In this document: piece after piece, positions 10,289 to 58,808 of the stretch
Layout: each line of letters begins with the position of its first letter
Position numbering within the stretch: the stretch's first letter is position 1
Assembly (NCBI RefSeq): GCF_964019385.1
Contig: NC_088650.1
Location: forward strand, 26,685,266-26,749,265
Source of the DNA: Sycon ciliatum
Taxonomy: Eukaryota; Porifera; Calcarea; Leucosolenida; Sycettidae
DNA length: 64,000 nt
Direction: 5' to 3'
The notes under the pieces: model-generated
What the model saw: only the letters and a program-made list of their open reading frames with translations
What the model was told of the DNA's origin: nothing
The model's database searches: none
Program-made: the position numbers and the translations under genes

Positions 10289-12037
10289 TGTGAGAGCATG
10301 CATGGTATTCGTTGCTCTAACTTCTGTCTTACATTCCTTGTTGCACCCGCCGGCTACCATGGCTCATTGATGGTCTCCCGACATGTAATACATTCCCTTT
10401 GACTGTGTGTCACCGCCAGATCCTTTTACTTCTGGTGTCCGTTTCATGTTCATCTATTGCTTCGATCCCAGTGCCATTTCTTGGGCATGGGACAGCGCTG
10501 CCAAGCGTTTGTGTCCGGATGCAGCAGCTGTCAAGCCGCCAACCCACGCCGCGGAGAGGCGACCGAGCCCACTCGTCCGGTATCAGCCAACGGTCCCTGG
10601 ACTCGTCCTGTATCAGCCAACGGCCCCTGGGATGTGGTGCACATCGATACCCTCGAGCTCGGCGTTAACCGGTCCGGGCGTTACCACTGCGTGTTGGTAT
10701 GCGTGGATGCATTCACCAAGTGGGTCGAGGTGGTTCCCCTCAAGCGTCATGACGGCATCTGTGTGGCTAGAGCTTTCGTCGACGTGTGCTCTCGGTGGGG
10801 TCCTCCTCGCGTGGTTCGATCCGACAACGGCACAGAGTTCAAGAACGCTGCCATGTCTTCCGTCTACGAGGCGTTCGGCGTTCATGTCTGCTACGGCGCA
10901 GCACGTCATCCCCAGTCGCAAGGCGTGGCCGAGAGGTTCAACCAAACCCTGTTGACCCTCGTGCGGAAGGTTCTGGATGAGGCGCACGACTGGGAACAGG
11001 AGCTGGCGATGCTCCTGTACTACTATCAGATCCGGCCACACAGCGCCACCAACGTCTCCCCGATAGAGGCCATGGTTGGTTGGCATTCCCGTGGCTTGGT
11101 CGTGGATCGGCCTCAGCACTCGTATTCGGCTGGCTCATGGGTAGACGACCTCCAGCAGCGGAGATGCGAGACTACATCGAGTCTGCGCTCGGCCGCTTCG
11201 ACTTCATCGACGAGCCGACTCCGAGCCGCTTGACTGTTGGCGATGCGGTCATGCTTCGCCGGCCTCAGCGCTGCCAGAAGCGCCTAACCCCGTACGAGCC
11301 TGGTTGGCAAGTTATGTCGATCGTGGGCCCCTCGACGGTGGTGGTTCATCGGGTCGACGGCACCGGCCGTGACAAGATCGTGAATGTCGACTTGTTAAGG
11401 CGTGCCGCCGAGGACGATCTGCCGCCGCCCGTCGCTCCGGGTGCCAGCGATGAAGCCGAGTCGGGCCCTGTTCCGTCTCTGGTATTGAGCGTTGACCCGG
11501 TCACGCCGCCGCCGCCTGCTGCAGGCCCATCATTGCGCGCCCGGTCTACGCTCGTGCGACCTGCTCGATATTCATGATTATGTTGTAGCTATTCGGTGGT
11601 GACATGAGTCACTAAGGGGTGATGTGAGAGCATGCATGGTATTCGTTGCTCTAACTTCTGTCTTACATTCCTTGTTGCACCCGCCGGCTACCATGGCTCA
11701 TTGATGGTCTCCCGACATGTAATACATTCCCTTTGACTGTGTGTCACCGCCAGATCCTTTTACTTCTGGTGTCCGTTTCATGTTCATCTATTGTTCGCTT
11801 GCGCGCTGGCATGCAACTGGCGTGCTCTCATGCGTACAGTGCGTACAACGAAGAACTACGTCAGTTCCAGTTAGTTTTTTAGAGTTGGCCGTGGAACAAA
11901 CTTGTGTTTTTCGCTCTCCCACATTCTCTGCTTCTTCTCCAATAATTATATGATCACTGTTCGCCAAAGTTTTCGTTGTGGACGTTGTTGCGAGTGCGTG
12001 TCCGGGAGTGAGTTGGGGCGGTCGTGATTATCTAACA
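10289..12037 (+). mobile_element. Ty3/Gypsy LTR retrotransposon, internally deleted
   Basis: It starts TGTGAGAG and ends TCTAACA (canonical TG..CA) and is flanked by the 4-bp duplication CGTT (10285-10288 and 12038-12041). The right LTR is 11623-12037 (415 bp). The left LTR keeps only its first ~172 bp (10289-10460, essentially identical to the right copy) and then jumps into the integrase region. A deletion has therefore removed the rest of the LTR, gag, protease and RT. What remains is integrase plus the C-terminal tail. The near identity of the LTR pieces implies a fairly recent insertion. Confidence 0.9.
10461..11577 (+). pseudogene. Gypsy integrase remnant with one frameshift
   Basis: The first frame has the CxxC half of the zinc finger (GCSSCQ), then the catalytic core: D in HIDTLEL, D in RSDNGTEF, E in GVAERFNQTLLTL. 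Around 11160 the frame shifts; the second frame has a GPY/F-like region (LTPYEPGWQVMSIVGPSTVV) and runs to a stop at 11575-11577. The His half of the zinc finger is missing at the deletion junction. The element is non-functional. Confidence 0.85.
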
Positions 12038-24743: not shown

Positions 24744-25096
24744 GTTCAACAGGCCACAGGTAAAGACTTTTGCTGTAGTTTTGGTAGTCACTGCCACCAT
24801 GGCCACTGCAGTGGTCAACAAAACGAGGATGCACGACGATCCGGAGGGCGGAGGATCATGCTATAGCTGCCAATGCCAGGATACCGGTAGGCGGTACTGA
24901 GTTGTATACACATGTAGTTGACCGTGACATTCGGTAACCATGGTTATGGATTAATGTACGCGCAGGATCTGCTGTAGCCTAGGATGTGGTGGTGACAGAC
25001 TTTTCCCGTTTGCATCTTTCCCTGCAGTCTTTCATTTTGGACACATGTACAGTCATCATGGTCATGGTATTATTATAACCTGACACTGGTTCATAA

Positions 25097-25656
25097 AATA
25101 TGGTGGTAAAGACACACCTGGCAATATGGCGGTAAACACACGCCTGCCCACACACGCTCTCTAAGCTGCAAAGTTCTGGCACAGAGCTCTCCTTCTCACC
25201 ACCACCACCATCAGTTCGCGCCTGGCGCCTCGTCGATGCATGGTTGGCGGTATCCGACATAGCAGGCTGGTACATCAAGTAGCGCATGGCACATAGAAGA
25301 TGACACAGCAACGACATAGCTCGATTGCGACGTACGTTTCGTCCCCGCTGGACTCATCAGGCAATCTTCTTCTTGGATGTCTTCATACGGAGCTTGACTC
25401 GGGAGGATGAAATTGAAGACACCACTGCAGCTGTACTTATGGTTGATAAATATGGTGGTAAAGACACACCTGGCAATATAGCGGTAAACACACGCCTGCC
25501 CACACACGCTCTCTAGGCTGCAAAGTTCTGGCACAGAGCTCTCCTTCTCACCACCACCACCACCATCAGTTCGCGCCTGGCGCCTGGTCGATGTATGGTT
25601 GGCGGTATCCGGCATAGCAGGCTGGTACATCAAGTAGCGCATGGCACATAGATGAT
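25097..25656 (-). mobile_element. Tandem 351-bp repeat carrying a hammerhead ribozyme (retrozyme or Penelope pseudo-LTR)
   Basis: 25097-25303 is repeated as 25448-25656 with few differences, in direct orientation 351 bp apart. The full unit (25097-25447) contains the ribozyme at 25323-25366; the second copy breaks off just before the matching position. Direct, nearly identical units of 170-400 bp with one type I hammerhead each are the described layout of animal retrozymes and of Penelope-like element terminal repeats (known families). No GIY-YIG or RT coding frame is seen nearby, which favours a non-autonomous retrozyme. Confidence 0.75.
25323..25366 (-). ncRNA. Type I hammerhead self-cleaving ribozyme, minimal helix III
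   Basis: On the minus strand, in order: GAUUGC (helix I 5'), CUGAUGA (core), GUCC-AGCGG-GGAC (helix II), GAAA (core), CGUACG (very short palindromic helix III), UC, then the cleavage site between 25329 and 25328, then GCAAUC (helix I 3'). Helix I pairs 6 of 6 and helix II 4 of 4; all core bases are present. The CGUACG loop is like that of Penelope/retrozyme hammerheads, which act as dimers. It would process a multimeric minus-strand transcript into unit-length RNAs. Confidence 0.92.
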
Positions 25657-25990
25657 GAAGTGTAATCTCCTCGCGAAACGTGACCAACAGGAACTCCAAA
25701 TTCACCATACACCTAGCTTTACATTGCCCCAGTCTCTCAACCTTGCCGGCATGGCTGTATTCTTGGGGTTGACTTTCACTTAGTGTAGGTCATCAACTGC
25801 ATGTTTGCAAAGTGCCCGCCCAAAGTTAGAGATCGATATTTTTTTCAAAAGGACGAGACGAACAGGGACCAAACCCCCTCCCTCACAAACGAACGAATAT
25901 CTTCCGTCTAAAAAAACTCGATATTTGTGGACGGCCCCTAAGTAACTGTATTAGTTAGTTACATACATGTACACAAATAGGAGATCCTCC

Positions 25991-26512: not shown

Positions 26513-26545
26513 ACCTGATGAAGGCAATTTGCCGAAACGTTGAAA
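26513..26545 (+). ncRNA. Degenerate hammerhead-like motif
   Basis: CCTGATGAAGGCAATTTGCC followed by GAAACGTTG. It has CUGAUGA, a GGCAA/UUGCC hairpin and GAAAC, but the first helix II pair is mismatched and no cleavage triplet with a helix I partner is visible. Probably a decayed copy or a look-alike. Confidence 0.3.
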
Positions 26546-27032
26546 TACATGTAATTATTGTGAAATGAGTTGAACTATTGCAGTGTTAATGGAAGAGAGC
26601 GTGTGGGCTCTACTCTTAACTGTTTATGAAACTGCAGGAAGCCTCCACACTTTTACTTCAGTACAAAATGTACCTAATAATACGTTCTGTTGAGGCCGTA
26701 AGGTGTCACATGTGTTATGTGGGATATCGGCCTGAAGACTGCCGGCAACATCTAAATACATGTACATGTATGTCGCTTGATAGCTGCTATGGTGCACTGC
26801 TCAGCCCGTGCCAAGCACACTCCTTCGGAACTTGTGCAGCCGGGTTTATCAAGCCATGATGGCAGCGAATACCCTCTTTTTCCATGGACAAACAGAAAGA
26901 AGATGCGAAATCCCACGGTTTCTGGATCTGGCCAAAGGATCACCAAATCTCAAAGACGTCACAATTTCAAACTGATATATCCCAAGTCAAGAACGGCGCT
27001 TGGTCGGATCGAAGTCACGGGGACTTTCACCA

Positions 27033-28555: not shown

Positions 28556-29806
28556 AAGGCCTTCTTTCTTACAGGTACCCCAGAAATGAAAGTACTGAAT
28601 TCCGGAATAGGTGCAGGTGCGTTAACCTATAGATTTTGAACTATCGTTAAATTTGCAACTCGTTATAATAACATGTCTTACACCGGGAGGTTGAGCCTTC
28701 ATACCAGTACACAGTACCTAACACTTCTGAAAACTAGGGAGTCTACCACGGTCTTTTCCCCCTGGTTTTGGTTTACTTGGTGTCCATGTGCAGGTAAACA
28801 TGGTGATACTGCCTGGTGAACAAACACCTAGTACCTGAGTCCTGCGTTGGTCCTTATACTATTAAAAGCCTTTCCATGATCCACCATAACCATAACCTAC
28901 CGACCGCTGGTTTCATGTGACTCTTGGTGGAAAAAGTACTAGTACTTTTAAAAAGTAGACCAAAGGAGTCTCCAGGCTCTCCTTGCCTGGAGGTGTTGTA
29001 GTTGTACAACTCCGGCAGCCTAGGCGAAAACAACACTGCGGCTGCCGGTGTGTGTGTGTGTGACCATCAGCCTTCAGGAGTTCAGGACGCACCGCGGTCG
29101 CACCTTCCCCATTCCTGCCCCGGCCCCGTACCCACTAGTGCACTGTCTGTGTTGTTCGGAATCCGAGCATCAAGAAGCCTGAAAAGAAGATCAAGAAACG
29201 CATAGTCATGCATAGTCATCCAGGGTGGAACTGTTTCAGGAAGGAAACGCACTGGCTTGGGTCCTTTGGGACCTCGTACAGTTTGCCCGATGCTCGAAAC
29301 ATCACAGTCAACACATGTCAGATTCTTTGTACACGTTTTTTGGGACGCTATTTCTCCATTAGCACTGTAATCTGTACAACTTCAAGCCGTACTTTCAATG
29401 CAGAACACCACGTGCTGGGGGACGCCATGCATGGTTGTTTGTACAACGAAGTAAAGTTGTCAAAAACCTGATGTCACACTTTGAAGCCCTGTTGGGAATG
29501 TAGGCTGTTGTTGAACACAGGGGATCGTTTTGATAGCCCTGGTTGGACGAAGTGTTCAGTGGAGGCACACAAATGGCACGACAACGAGCTTTGCTTTCCC
29601 TATTGGCTGACTCAGTCTCATTAGCCGACTTTCACCCTTTTCCGTCGACTGTTGCCATTCTTGACGAGTGAGGGTGAAACTTGGTTTGGGTGGTTCAGGG
29701 CTGAAGGACTTCCTCCCAATTGCAACGTTTCCGCATAGTAATTGAATGAAATACTTACCTCCGGTCCTGAAACTGCGGGGAGGAATCCACAGTGTGTACA
29801 GCGGAA

Positions 29807-32800
29807 ATGGAATCTGAACTTGCCGCCAGGGCTGCAAGAATTGAGGTTCTCGAAAATGAACTCAAAGGTGAACGATTGAAGACTACTCTCTTACAGAGAG
29901 AAAATGCAGCCCTCCGCGAAGAGTTGGAGGAGTTGAAAGAAAGCATGGAGCCGCCCAGCTTCCTCAAATCCGCATCAAATACACCGGCCAAACCGGGAGA
30001 CAAGCCTCCACGGGTGAGGAGGACGAGCGGAGCCATCGGCAGGTCTCTGGACGACAAGAGTGCCAAAGCGGGTATTTCGGGAGAATTGTTTGACCCGGAA
30101 ACCGTACTGAACTTCAAGATCACCTACGTCACAAAGGACCAGGAGACGAAAACGAACCTGGAGAATGCTATTCGCAGAAACCCAATGCTAGGCAGCTTGG
30201 ATGTGCATCAGATTCGCGATATAGTAGATAGCATGGAAGTGGGCCGTTACAAAGTTGGTGACACTATCATCCAAGAAGGAAGTCAAGGCGATAAATTGTA
30301 CATCAGCGCTGATAATGGAACCTTCGAAGTGGTAGCGGGTACAAGTACGATAGCAACATTCGGCAGTTGGGTAGTGTTTGGAGAGCTTGCTCTTCTGTAT
30401 GGATGCCAGCGCACAGCCACCATCAACCTTATAGAATCGGACGATGACGGTACAGACAAAGAGGACGTCCAGGTCTGGTCAATCAAGCGGCGCACGTTCC
30501 AGATGATCACGCTAAAGACGGGCATGGTGCGACAGCGCAAGACCTTGTCCTTTGTGCGAAACATTTCCTTCTTCTCGCACCTGAAAGATAAAGAGGTGGA
30601 GCTGCTTCGGCTGGTCGACGCCCTGACCGAGGAACGGTACATGCCCGGAGAGTACGTGTTCCAGCAAGGTGCAATTGGCGAGACGTTCTACATCATACAA
30701 GAGGGCGAGGTTGTCGTGGAGAACAAGTCCGGCGCGGCAGGCAAAGACCCGGTTTTCGTGGCCACTCTGCGCCAAGGCGACACGTTTGGTGAAACGGCTC
30801 TGTTGCATGATGACATACGCACGGCGGACGTCAAGGCTGTTACCGATATTGTCCTGCTTGCTCTCGGGCGAAAAATGTTCGAGCGGACCTTGAGCCTGGT
30901 GGAGAAGAAGTACGAGTCCGCACTGCCAGTCTCCACGATCTATGATGCGGATGGGATGGGTTTAATGCCAACAACATCCTCATCTCATTCTGTGGATCCC
31001 ACATACGAAGATCTTCTCATGCAAGACTTTGTTATCCTTGGACGACTGGGAGTAGGTAAGAGAGTAAAGCTACATGTACCTGATCGTGTGTGTGTGTGGT
31101 GTGTGGGTGTGTTGGGGGAGGGGGGAGGGGGGGGGGGGTGCATGTGCGCAGCATGTCTTCAGTTTGCACATACTGGTATTCCTCTTGTTGTTATAAATTA
31201 TTCTCGCCATGTGGCCAGTAGCCAATTAGAGAGGTTTTTGCTGTTGTTGCTGCTGCTGCCGTTGCTGCTGCTGTTTGCTGCTGCAGTTTTCTGTTGCTTG
31301 CTGCATGTAAAGTAAAGGTTTGACATGAGGTCTTGACTGTTCCTGTCCTGCAGGTGGGTTTGGCCGGGTCGAGTTGGTTCACATGATCGGCAACGACACC
31401 AAAACATACGCACTCAAGTGCCTGGCCAAGAAACAACTCGTCGAGCGCAAGCAGCAGGCCCAGGTATTCCGCGAGAGGGACCTGCAGAGATCCATAAAGC
31501 ACCCATTCATTGCTCGACTGTACGGCACCTTCAAAGATCCATGGTAAGTTCCTCACTCAGTTGGCTCACTTTGGGGAAAAGTACAAGAGACACTCCCAAA
31601 GTAGCCAAAATCCCAGTTCATGCCTAAACCTTTTTCTGAGAAGGCGTGCAGTGTGTACAGGCAGTATAACCAACCCAACTACACTGGTGTGAGATATGAT
31701 GGCAGTTGCTCGTGCTGGTTTTGGACTCCGTGTCGTTGTCTCTTTCTCTCCCTCTGTCTCACTGCCTGTGCGTGTTGTTGTTGTTGTTGCTGGTGGTGGT
31801 GGTCTTGTTCATTTATGCTTTCTCCAGCTTTCTGTACATGCTGATGGAGCCCTGCCTCGGTGGGGAGATGTGGTGTGTCCTAAGAGATTGCGGCCGCCTG
31901 ACAGACGCAGAAGCTCAGTTCATCACCGGCTGTGTCATCGAAGCACTGTCGTATCTACACCGTCGTCACATCGTTTATAGGTGAGTGTGCGCGCATGCAC
32001 ACACACACACACACGGACACCTGGAACGTCCATTGCCGTAGCGGTGGCTTCCCCATGCCGAGGCTCCAGACTCGCCATCTGCAATATGGCTCGTGTCACT
32101 TGAGGTCGCGCGGACAATTTTTTGCAATTTTGACAGATAGCCAGCCCTTCACTGGCCGCATCCAAGAATCCCAAATGCTGAATTAATTTCATCCCCTATT
32201 GTGTCTGCCTCTCTTGCTGTTACTTTGTATCCGTAGGGATCTGAAGCCGGAGAATCTGATGTTGGACAGTCGTGGCTACTGCAAACTGGTGGACTTTGGC
32301 TTTGCGAAGAGACTGGACGGCCCGGCGTTCAAGACCTGGACGTTCTGTGGTACGCCGGAGTACCTTGCACCGGAGGTGATTCTCAACAAGGGACACTCCT
32401 TCACCGCTGACATCTGGGCAGTCGGCATCCTGATCTTCGAGCTCCTAAGCGGCTGGCCTCCGTTCGTGTCCAACAAGCAAGTCGAAGTGTACAGCAATGT
32501 CCTGCGCGGCTTTGACAACCTTACCCGCTTCCCGGCCGACAGCTTCCCGGCCGTTCCCAAGTCTCTTGTGCTGAGCCTGTGCCGCCTGAAGCCGGCCAAG
32601 CGGCTCGGCGCAGGCCTCGGCGGCAGTGGCATTGGTGCCATCCAGAGTCACAAGTGGTTCTCGAACTTCAACTGGCTGAGCCTCCGCAGCCAGACCATGG
32701 AGCCCCTCATCGTGCCCAACATCAGCAGCGAAACCGACCTCAGCAACTTCGATCAGAAGGACAAGAACAAGGTGAAGCCAACCTCGCCCGACCACAGCGG

Positions 32801-35657: not shown

Positions 35658-36500
35658 AGTTACAGTTCGCATGTCACTCATGGAAGGATCCATGGGCTTA
35701 ACGCATCTGTCAACGAAATCCAGGCAGAAGAGCCGACAAAAGGCATCTCATTATTGTTAGAACGTATCGCAGTAAGAACAACTACGCAAGCGCAGCACAT
35801 TTTCCACAAGCATCAGCCATTCTTTCTTGTCTAGAGCCAGTTCAAAACAGTCAGAAATATCAATATTGGCGTGCTTTAGATCACTTTTAATATTGTCAAT
35901 CCATCTGAGATGGGGTCGGCCACGTGGGCGCTTGATGTCCCGGGTATTAATTGCCATCTCCAGTGCTTGGTAGGACGCTGAGTTACGTCCTTCGCGAACA
36001 ACATGGCCCAGCCAGAGCAGCCGACGTCTGCGACAGGTAGTGCTGACTGGGCCTTGTCGCGTTGAGGCGTACACCTTGGCATTCGACATGTGGTGAGGGT
36101 ACACCACACCAAGCAGGTACCGCAATTTTCTGCGGTGCCATGCGTCCAGCCGATTACTGAGTTGCTGTGTCAGGGCCCACAGTCCGCAGTTATACAACAG
36201 GATAGGCAAAATGAGGGCAGAGAACATACAAAGTCTGGAGCTCAGTTTATGACGCTTCCACGAAATGGAGCCGAACGCTCTATTCGCAGCACCTATTCTT
36301 GCCTGAATATCCTCTGCGGACCCCAACAAAGAGCCAAGCAGCTTGACAGATCGCCAAGAGGAGTCGGCTTTAGTTACTGTAATATATTGTGTTTTCTGAA
36401 TATTTAACATTAGGTTATCTTCTTTGAATTTTTCACTTGATTTCTCCACAATCTCCTCGAGTGAAAATTCAAAGAAGATAACCTAATGTTAAATATTCAG
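35658..36500 (-). mobile_element. 5'-truncated non-LTR retrotransposon with inverted 5' end
   Basis: Minus-strand frame 36449-35757 encodes the C-terminal part of an endonuclease/RT polyprotein: NIQKTQYITV, ALILPILLYNCGLWAL, a LLWLGHVVREG block, RPRGRPHLRW and a closing region without the catalytic YADD. A perfect 20-bp target-site duplication flanks it. At its 5' end, 36394-36438 and 36460-36503 are inverted copies (44 bp, one indel), as after twin priming or template switching during insertion. The frame is intact but far too short to act. Confidence 0.88.
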
Positions 36501-37601
36501 AAAATTTAAATAATAATAATTAAATGTTATATCCTCCTTATAGCTGCGTCTGGTGCCTGGGCATGGGCTGTATTGTTGCCAGCGGAAGCGGAAACTGGTA
36601 GTTCTGCAGTAGGCCATGCTGTGAGGTGCCCCGTACCTTCACAGACCCTGTGCACAATTATACAGCACACCTCAGGAAATTGATTTTGCACCTTGTGTTG
36701 AGTCTAATTAAGAATGTTATGTCAGTAACGTCACGTAACACCTAGCACCTGTGGATGGTGATGCCCATGCGTAGTATACATGTCAGTGCATATTTTACAA
36801 AGTGCAAGTGAATCAATCTGGAGATCATGTGATGCTAGTGAGAAGGAGCCATTTGCATGGTGGTTCACACCGGAAACCACTGTGCATCTGATTAGGCTTG
36901 AACTACACACGTACACGCATCCCAATTAGGCCAACTCAACATATCGTATGGCGTGACTTCAGTCTGCTTCAAGGAAATATTAATTGAAGGAAGCAATCTG
37001 AGAGGCTGCCACGTGCAAGTGTTGCTGAACCTCTTGCGTGTGGCACAAATCAAATGCTGGAAGAGAATCCTCATTGGACAAGAATGATGGAGCAGAGCAC
37101 CATCTCTTACATGTGGTATAGTATGGCGCGGCTCCCTGGCCAAAAAGACACACTGATCATGGTGGCTGCCATGACGCAGGACCCGGCGCCGGATGCAGTT
37201 TTTTATTGGTCCGGCCAAACCATAGCCTTTCATACTTTGAGTAGGATGTAGCGAGTATACATGACCTCCTCAGCAGTAAACATGCCGCGATTTGGTGGCA
37301 AAGAAGTTGGTCTGGTGGTGACCTGCCACGGGACCGGACCGGAGGGCGGGCTGTGGCATGCTGTCATCAGTGTGGCGCCATGACCTTCAGAGAGTAGTGA
37401 AACTACGCGGGTATTTTCATGGCTTCTCGTGACTACAATCAGGGCAGACTCTGATTGCCATCCGGCATACCCAACAATAGAGCCTAGAGGTTATGCGAAT
37501 GATTTCATGGGGTGAATCAGCGGAACCGCTTATGGGTGCTAAGTATGCAGCGCGAGTCGCTAGCGCATCGCAGTGCCACGACGTTGCCAAAGCACCTCAA
37601 C

Positions 37602-53784: not shown

Positions 53785-58808
<5,024 letters not shown>

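Follow-up and report, generated by a model that had tools for sequence, protein, structure and literature searches.

A hammerhead-bearing tandem repeat of the sponge Sycon ciliatum: a probable non-autonomous Penelope-type element copied from both DNA ends on a single RNA circle

The window analysed in this article is a stretch of 64,000 nucleotides from the calcareous sponge Sycon ciliatum (contig NC_088650.1, forward-strand positions 26,685,266 to 26,749,265), and the element in question is a 352-bp repeat that carries a type I hammerhead ribozyme, of which the window holds one short insert and the genome many relatives. There is good support for a retroelement that is non-autonomous, present in many copies, equipped with a ribozyme, and presumed to pass through an RNA circle. 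More specifically, the repeat is probably a non-autonomous, Penelope-type, retrozyme-like element, in which a Penelope-type enzyme copies one RNA circle into DNA, starting at both DNA ends. The strong points of this reading are the rule by which the two arms of an insert begin at two different sites, here termed A and B, and the evidence that both arms derive from one molecule; the circle and its cognate enzyme are the presumed parts.

The genome searched comprised 538,412,230 bases in 313 contigs. Inserts were read in the window and 39 further loci, the best 40 of 1508 candidate regions by likeness to the window; L041, a segmental copy of L021, was left out of the table of arms and ends, and the arms of nine records in complex loci (L026, L027, L038, L039, L040, L043, L055, and L057) were chosen by hand. 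Inserts consist of one or two arms of repeated units, and where there are two they meet head-to-head in the ribozyme sense (30 two-armed and 11 one-armed among the 41 inserts listed). The arms are pure repeat, containing no reverse transcriptase (RT) plus GIY-YIG reading frame, and extend to 4914 bp, or 14 units, in the longest case (L025); the unit position of the junction varies from insert to insert, and the arms there overlap or leave a gap, mostly of 0–3 bp. A nested element with CAGGGGCGTAG/CTACGCCCCTG inverted ends was also observed inside one array (L026:2828-3227).

The outer ends of the arms fall into two narrow zones, A and B, about 40 nt apart. Exact mapping, carried out for 21 two-armed inserts of the 40 (with L021 read from its copy L041), placed the A ends between -13 and +2 relative to unit position 1, 20 of the 21 lying 3–13 before it, and the 21 B ends 38–49 before it. 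The two zones are used together: 13 of the 30 two-armed inserts have A on the left and B on the right, 13 have the reverse, one appears as A/A, and three have an unclassifiable end (L031, L032, and L055). The A/A case, L040, proved to be an A/B insert behind a nested insert, its outermost piece (q307-340) lying at L040:3557-3590 with the duplication after it. Counted in this way, an A end is combined with a B end in 27 of 30 two-armed inserts, and the chance of 27 such pairs under independent choice is about 7e-9. One-armed inserts start at either site (six at A, five at B).

Whole inserts, including both arms, are bordered by short target duplications. Flank words of at least 7 bp are common to both sides in 35 of 40 inserts, a count that includes L041 and four cases in simple repeats, versus 6% of mismatched flank pairs, and the maximal shared length is 12–14 bp in 17 of the 21 inserts examined. 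The last 1–4 bases of the duplication often fit the template as well (mean 1.8 nt over 42 ends, a figure that has no formal null). With head-to-head inverted repeats in 30 of 41 inserts, a 30–45 nt tail on one arm in 27 of 30, and a short target duplication, the architecture is that of Penelope-like elements.

The second line of evidence comes from sequence variants within and between the arms. Among 112 full units, mean divergence is 0.0048 within the same arm and 0.0069 between opposite arms (both means leaving out six complex loci), and 0.0152 between different loci. Unit position 316, the diagnostic site that varies most, is A in 17 loci, G in 16, and T in six, and it is alike on both arms in all 18 informative loci of the 24 considered, where agreement would be expected with a frequency of 0.38 each (about 3e-8 overall). 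At positions 187, 201, 202, and 290, the arms are fully concordant in 18, 18, 18, and 15 loci, respectively. Of 247 locus-by-diagnostic-column cells, 231 are uniform, and the 16 that are not comprise 11 of CAC-repeat length, four in alignment-edge columns, and one private base. L025 has a 1-bp deletion that an exact 34-nt search of the 538 Mb finds at 17 genome places, all of them in L025 and divided between its arms as three and 14. Since no parent array for this variant is known in the assembly, the copying of one ring is its simplest source. That both arms were copied from one and the same RNA molecule is thus strongly indicated.

A mechanism that accommodates these features would begin with a transcript cut by paired hammerheads into 352-nt units, which would then be ligated into circles. 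A Penelope-type RT-GIY-YIG enzyme would bind the circle and cut the target DNA with a stagger of 12–14 bp, the length recorded in the duplications, and both DNA 3' ends would be extended by reverse transcription begun within the RNA, at the fixed internal positions mapped above. As the mapped ends show, one DNA end takes A and the other B, about 40 nt away, very probably on the same RNA molecule; each RT would run round the ring up to 14 times, so that the resulting head-to-head tandem arms meet at variable points, and extension of one DNA end only would leave a one-armed insert such as that of the window.

An unlikely alternative dispenses with the circle: with priming of the Penelope type, the enzyme would copy either a multimeric linear RNA transcribed from a tandem array already in place, or linear monomers that become joined as the RT jumps between templates. 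Large arrays do exist as possible sources of transcription, and for the anole Penelope element, so far as the accessible part of the report goes, the ribozyme is dispensable in vitro, ribozyme mutants still inserting and unprocessed RNA being the main substrate (Frangieh et al., 2024; PMC11167929). However, the exact search found the L025 variant nowhere else in the assembly, so that no multimeric parent array is known, and jumping between monomers would mix variants, yet the cells of the variant table are nearly all uniform. It is hardly probable that the repeat is ordinary satellite DNA, in which single copies spread and were afterwards enlarged and homogenized by unequal crossing-over and gene conversion. 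Units are indeed most alike within loci, and the number of CAC repeats differs within four arrays, a sign that DNA slippage does occur, but such a process leaves unexplained the pairing of A with B and the two fixed outer ends, the target duplications round whole two-armed arrays, and the presence of the same variants in inverted arms. The inverted arms could also be attributed to self-priming, or fold-back, of a single complementary DNA (cDNA), as has been proposed for the palindromes of rotifer Penelope elements in the part of that work available (Arkhipova et al., 2013; PMC3846280). In six of 27 uninterrupted junctions, where about three are expected, the two arms stop at nearly the same unit position (within 20 nt). 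In the other 21, however, the positions joined are far apart on the unit, and at the target one arm starts at A and its partner at B, which makes this a highly improbable origin.

Several observations weigh against the preferred reading, that of one RNA circle copied from both DNA ends. The anole results just cited are among them, as is the accompanying observation that the cut site did not coincide with the ends of anole RNA-seq reads, again according to the accessible text (PMC11167929). The sample described above was selected by likeness to the window and is not random, and no target duplication was found at the window copy by comparison of its flanks. L031 combines a B end with an atypical end despite a 13-bp duplication, and in L032 and L055 one end is odd and a clear duplication is lacking. 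Same-arm and opposite-arm divergence is higher in L023, L032, and L037 (about 0.010–0.012), the within-arm values of 0.010–0.011 nearing the between-locus mean. Position 318 is discordant in one locus (a tie within L019), and position 345 in two, at arm-edge bases. The L032 marker variant occurs at six loci and that of L034 also at C3 and C14, the pattern that a spread of variants would produce. The likeness of the arms could also be kept up by gene conversion between them, and likeness to the A/B region was not found in the GIY-YIG loci L010-L018, which are nine of the 13 GIY-YIG places considered below.

In the window itself, the insert is one-armed and holds 1.6 units at about 25087..25658, as delimited by BLAST of the tandem unit, with its ribozyme sense on the minus strand and its outer (RNA 3') end, of A type, on the left. 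It comprises a complete unit (25097..25448), whose period was read from the sequence with BLAST, and a partial second unit (25449..25658) that ends at unit position 207 and so stops before the ribozyme (unit positions 227-270). An initial sequence-only reading had described a ribozyme-bearing unit of 351 bp in tandem; the tandem arrangement stands, but the period is 352 bp (25097 to 25449), and the ribozyme is not doubled in the window, where a single one is present without a partner. Internal copies of the two start sites lie on the minus strand at 25436..25446 (A) and 25400..25411 (B, the end of the tail); they were placed from the mapped ends and, for B, a local fold in which it occupies a predicted hairpin loop. 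Adjoining site A on the same strand are two imperfect 26-bp direct repeats (25097..25148), detected with a tandem repeat finder and related to repeats in L026:906-1311, which are possible candidates for protein-binding sites.

The hammerhead lies on the minus strand at 25323..25366, in minimal form, with a predicted cut between 25329 and 25328. As had been proposed from the letters alone, a covariance search identifies it as type I: Rfam model RF00163 (Hammerhead_1) is covered end to end at 35.4 bits (E 3.7e-5), above the gathering score of 34, and the complete core, 6-bp helix I, 4-bp helix II, GUC triplet, and ACGUACGU helix III can be read directly. Helix I is unbroken and has no loop 1, so the loop 1-loop 2 contacts characteristic of canonical hammerheads are absent. 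In the single ribozyme, helix III has 3 bp (ACG-UA-CGU), which is too short to close alone, and the computed minimum-energy fold of the lone ribozyme is not a hammerhead. In a predicted cofold, two ribozymes form an 8-bp ACGUACGU helix III at -30.0 kcal/mol, compared with -10.5 for a single copy; on this modelling, the hammerhead is of the minimal Penelope type, with a helix III formable only between two ribozymes. Minimal dimeric hammerheads of Penelope-like elements were reportedly described by Luense et al. in 2017, and the predicted ability of two ribozymes to form a very short helix III between them is a likeness to these.

The 32-nt ribozyme core occurs at 1044 genome places (530 + 514) with at most one mismatch and the reversed-pattern control at none, so the hammerhead is more than a chance occurrence and the repeat is not single-copy; the 41-nt A/B region occurs at 1457 places with at most three mismatches (control 0). 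Selection on the ribozyme was considered and set aside, locus-level substitutions numbering 15 in its 44 sites versus about 162 in the 308 sites elsewhere, which is a weak difference. Other hammerhead-like motifs, which differ in helix II and mostly have AGCT as helix III, are present at 30 genome places (including L024:3606 and L049:1166), and two loci flanking such motifs contain a CTGATGAGGGGTGAATTCCCCGAAAC motif. Among 14 distinct hammerhead-like 33-mers elsewhere in the genome, 90% of cells are paired versus 64.5% after shuffling, and none of 500 shuffles scored as high, although two of the five pairs are partly fixed by the search pattern and two of the 33-mers are close variants of the window family. 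The sequences suggest that these motifs may be further ribozyme families.

Two loci on C1 depart from the usual spacing. At L061:1-451 (C1:87122080-87122530), a unit is spaced 390 bp from the next and bears many micro-duplications of 3–4 bp, one of which breaks the ribozyme; slippage during copying or a matter of assembly could account for them. The region from 69.38 to 69.46 Mb (L059) has pairs of ribozymes spaced about 345 bp, which recur at steps of about 6 kb, and the unit departs from the family in its far half. The locus at 69.387 Mb was considered as an autonomous ribozyme element and rejected, because its related half-unit with a hammerhead lies near an integrase-like frame and not a Penelope RT.

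A candidate source of the enzyme was sought among GIY-YIG sequences, which match above the Pfam cut-off at 13 genome places, one of them UvrC-like. The best match, on the small contig C291 (L058), encodes this UvrC-like protein, is probably bacterial contamination, and was discarded. In several of the loci fetched, a GIY-YIG frame is joined to an RT-like frame, and these we take to be Penelope-like; in L012, the match of the RT frame to Pfam RVT_1 is weak (E 0.002, below cut-off). Two Penelope-type proteins used as tblastn queries matched no insert and gave a single weak hit, in sequence flanking that of L045, and these RT/endonuclease queries had no match in the 64-kb window at E <= 1e-3, which agrees with the earlier remark that RT and GIY-YIG coding sequence is lacking nearby. 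A CTGATGA..GAAACGTTG-type motif at window position 26515 on the plus strand, about 860 bp from the insert, is common to six of ten fetched GIY-YIG loci (L010, L011, L013, L016, L017, and L018). Together with the bases that follow, this CTGATGAAGGCAATTTGCCGAAACGTTG motif probably marks a remnant of a Penelope-like 3' region outside the insert (26515..26598, plus strand, its extent judged by eye). One diverged insert, L026:906-1311, has nothing in common with the family beyond the A/B region and the 26-bp repeats, its middle being unrelated; it has B on the left, A on the right, and a 13-bp duplication, and no CTGATGA core was seen in it. As this insert has the A/B region without a ribozyme core, the enzyme may require that region and not the ribozyme.

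Several further features were recorded. The window contains two frames of about 510 amino acids with cyclic-nucleotide-binding domains, possibly duplicated genes (29792-31315 and 53785-55323, plus strand), and an integrase core domain (rve) belonging to a long terminal repeat (LTR)-type retroelement (10457-11233, plus strand). A long near-perfect hairpin at 36393-36503 gives matches to plant microRNA models that are below threshold, and it is accordingly an inverted repeat rather than a microRNA. At L024:1589-1937 (minus strand), two tRNA matches 281 bp apart perhaps represent a tRNA-derived repeat.

The hundreds of young, near-identical inserts in this genome record both cDNAs of an insertion, and they bear on how Penelope-like elements insert, on their tandem and inverted repeats with a one-sided tail, and on why hammerheads are carried. 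Variant markers trace both cDNAs, and as many as 17 units, back to a single RNA molecule, and the inserts reveal a division of labor between the two DNA ends at A and B; neither the A/B pairing nor the one-molecule evidence was found in the literature searched, which is no proof of its absence in print. As a tentative generalization, which may well not hold, two Penelope-type RTs would work together on one RNA circle made by the ribozyme, each DNA end taking a different start site and both running round it. If so, a single event would be recorded in the head-to-head arms, tail, and tandem pseudo-LTRs (pLTRs) of Penelope-like elements at large, and circle-making would be the purpose of their hammerheads. 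The repeat connects the Penelope mechanism with small ribozyme circles, a connection earlier proposed from co-occurrence, according to the accessible part of that study (PMC7229834), and its inserts offer a natural substrate for testing it.

Comparison with published animal retrozymes places the repeat close to, and partly outside, that group. In common with metazoan non-LTR retrozymes, as the available text describes them (Cervera and de la Pena, 2020; PMC7229834), it has a type I hammerhead in short tandem repeats (150–450 bp in those elements), dispersed copies, and a circular RNA intermediate, here presumed; circular RNA templates with Penelope-like elements as helpers have been proposed for them. 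The same text gives canonical hammerheads, low GC content, and highly self-paired rings as their features, whereas the hammerhead here is minimal, the unit has a GC content of 52%, and the predicted ring is not unusually self-paired: its circular fold (65% of bases paired) has an energy of -100.5 versus -107.95 for 100 shuffles (z +1.3), and a viroid-like rod was rejected on the same value. The proposal of an animal retrozyme made in the sequence-only reading is well supported as regards a non-autonomous, multi-copy element with a presumed circle and was set aside for a canonical one. The words 'inverted' and 'head-to-head' are absent from the main text of the metazoan retrozyme paper (PMC7229834). 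Plant LTR retrozymes, as described there in part, are likewise non-autonomous, with a hammerhead and circular RNA, but have type III hammerheads in LTRs and use LTR-retrotransposon machinery.

The closer likeness is to Penelope-like elements, which the accessible parts of two reports describe as having head-to-head inverted terminal repeats of which one bears a 30–45 nt tail, short target duplications, a hammerhead, and two internal RT start sites (PMC3846280; PMC11167929). In rotifers, these are inverted pLTRs with a 31-bp tail on one and duplications of 8–10 bp (Arkhipova et al., 2013). With the anole enzyme, both strands of the DNA are cut and extended, and a genomic tail of 30–40 bp is bounded by two neighboring RT starts inside the RNA (Frangieh et al., 2024); start sites were alike between strands, which agrees with A lying on the left or the right equally often here, and the portion of that in vitro work available does not report differing ends within one insert or a division of labor between A and B. 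Unlike Penelope-like elements, the inserts of S. ciliatum have no RT or endonuclease frame and consist of repeat units alone, up to 14 per arm.
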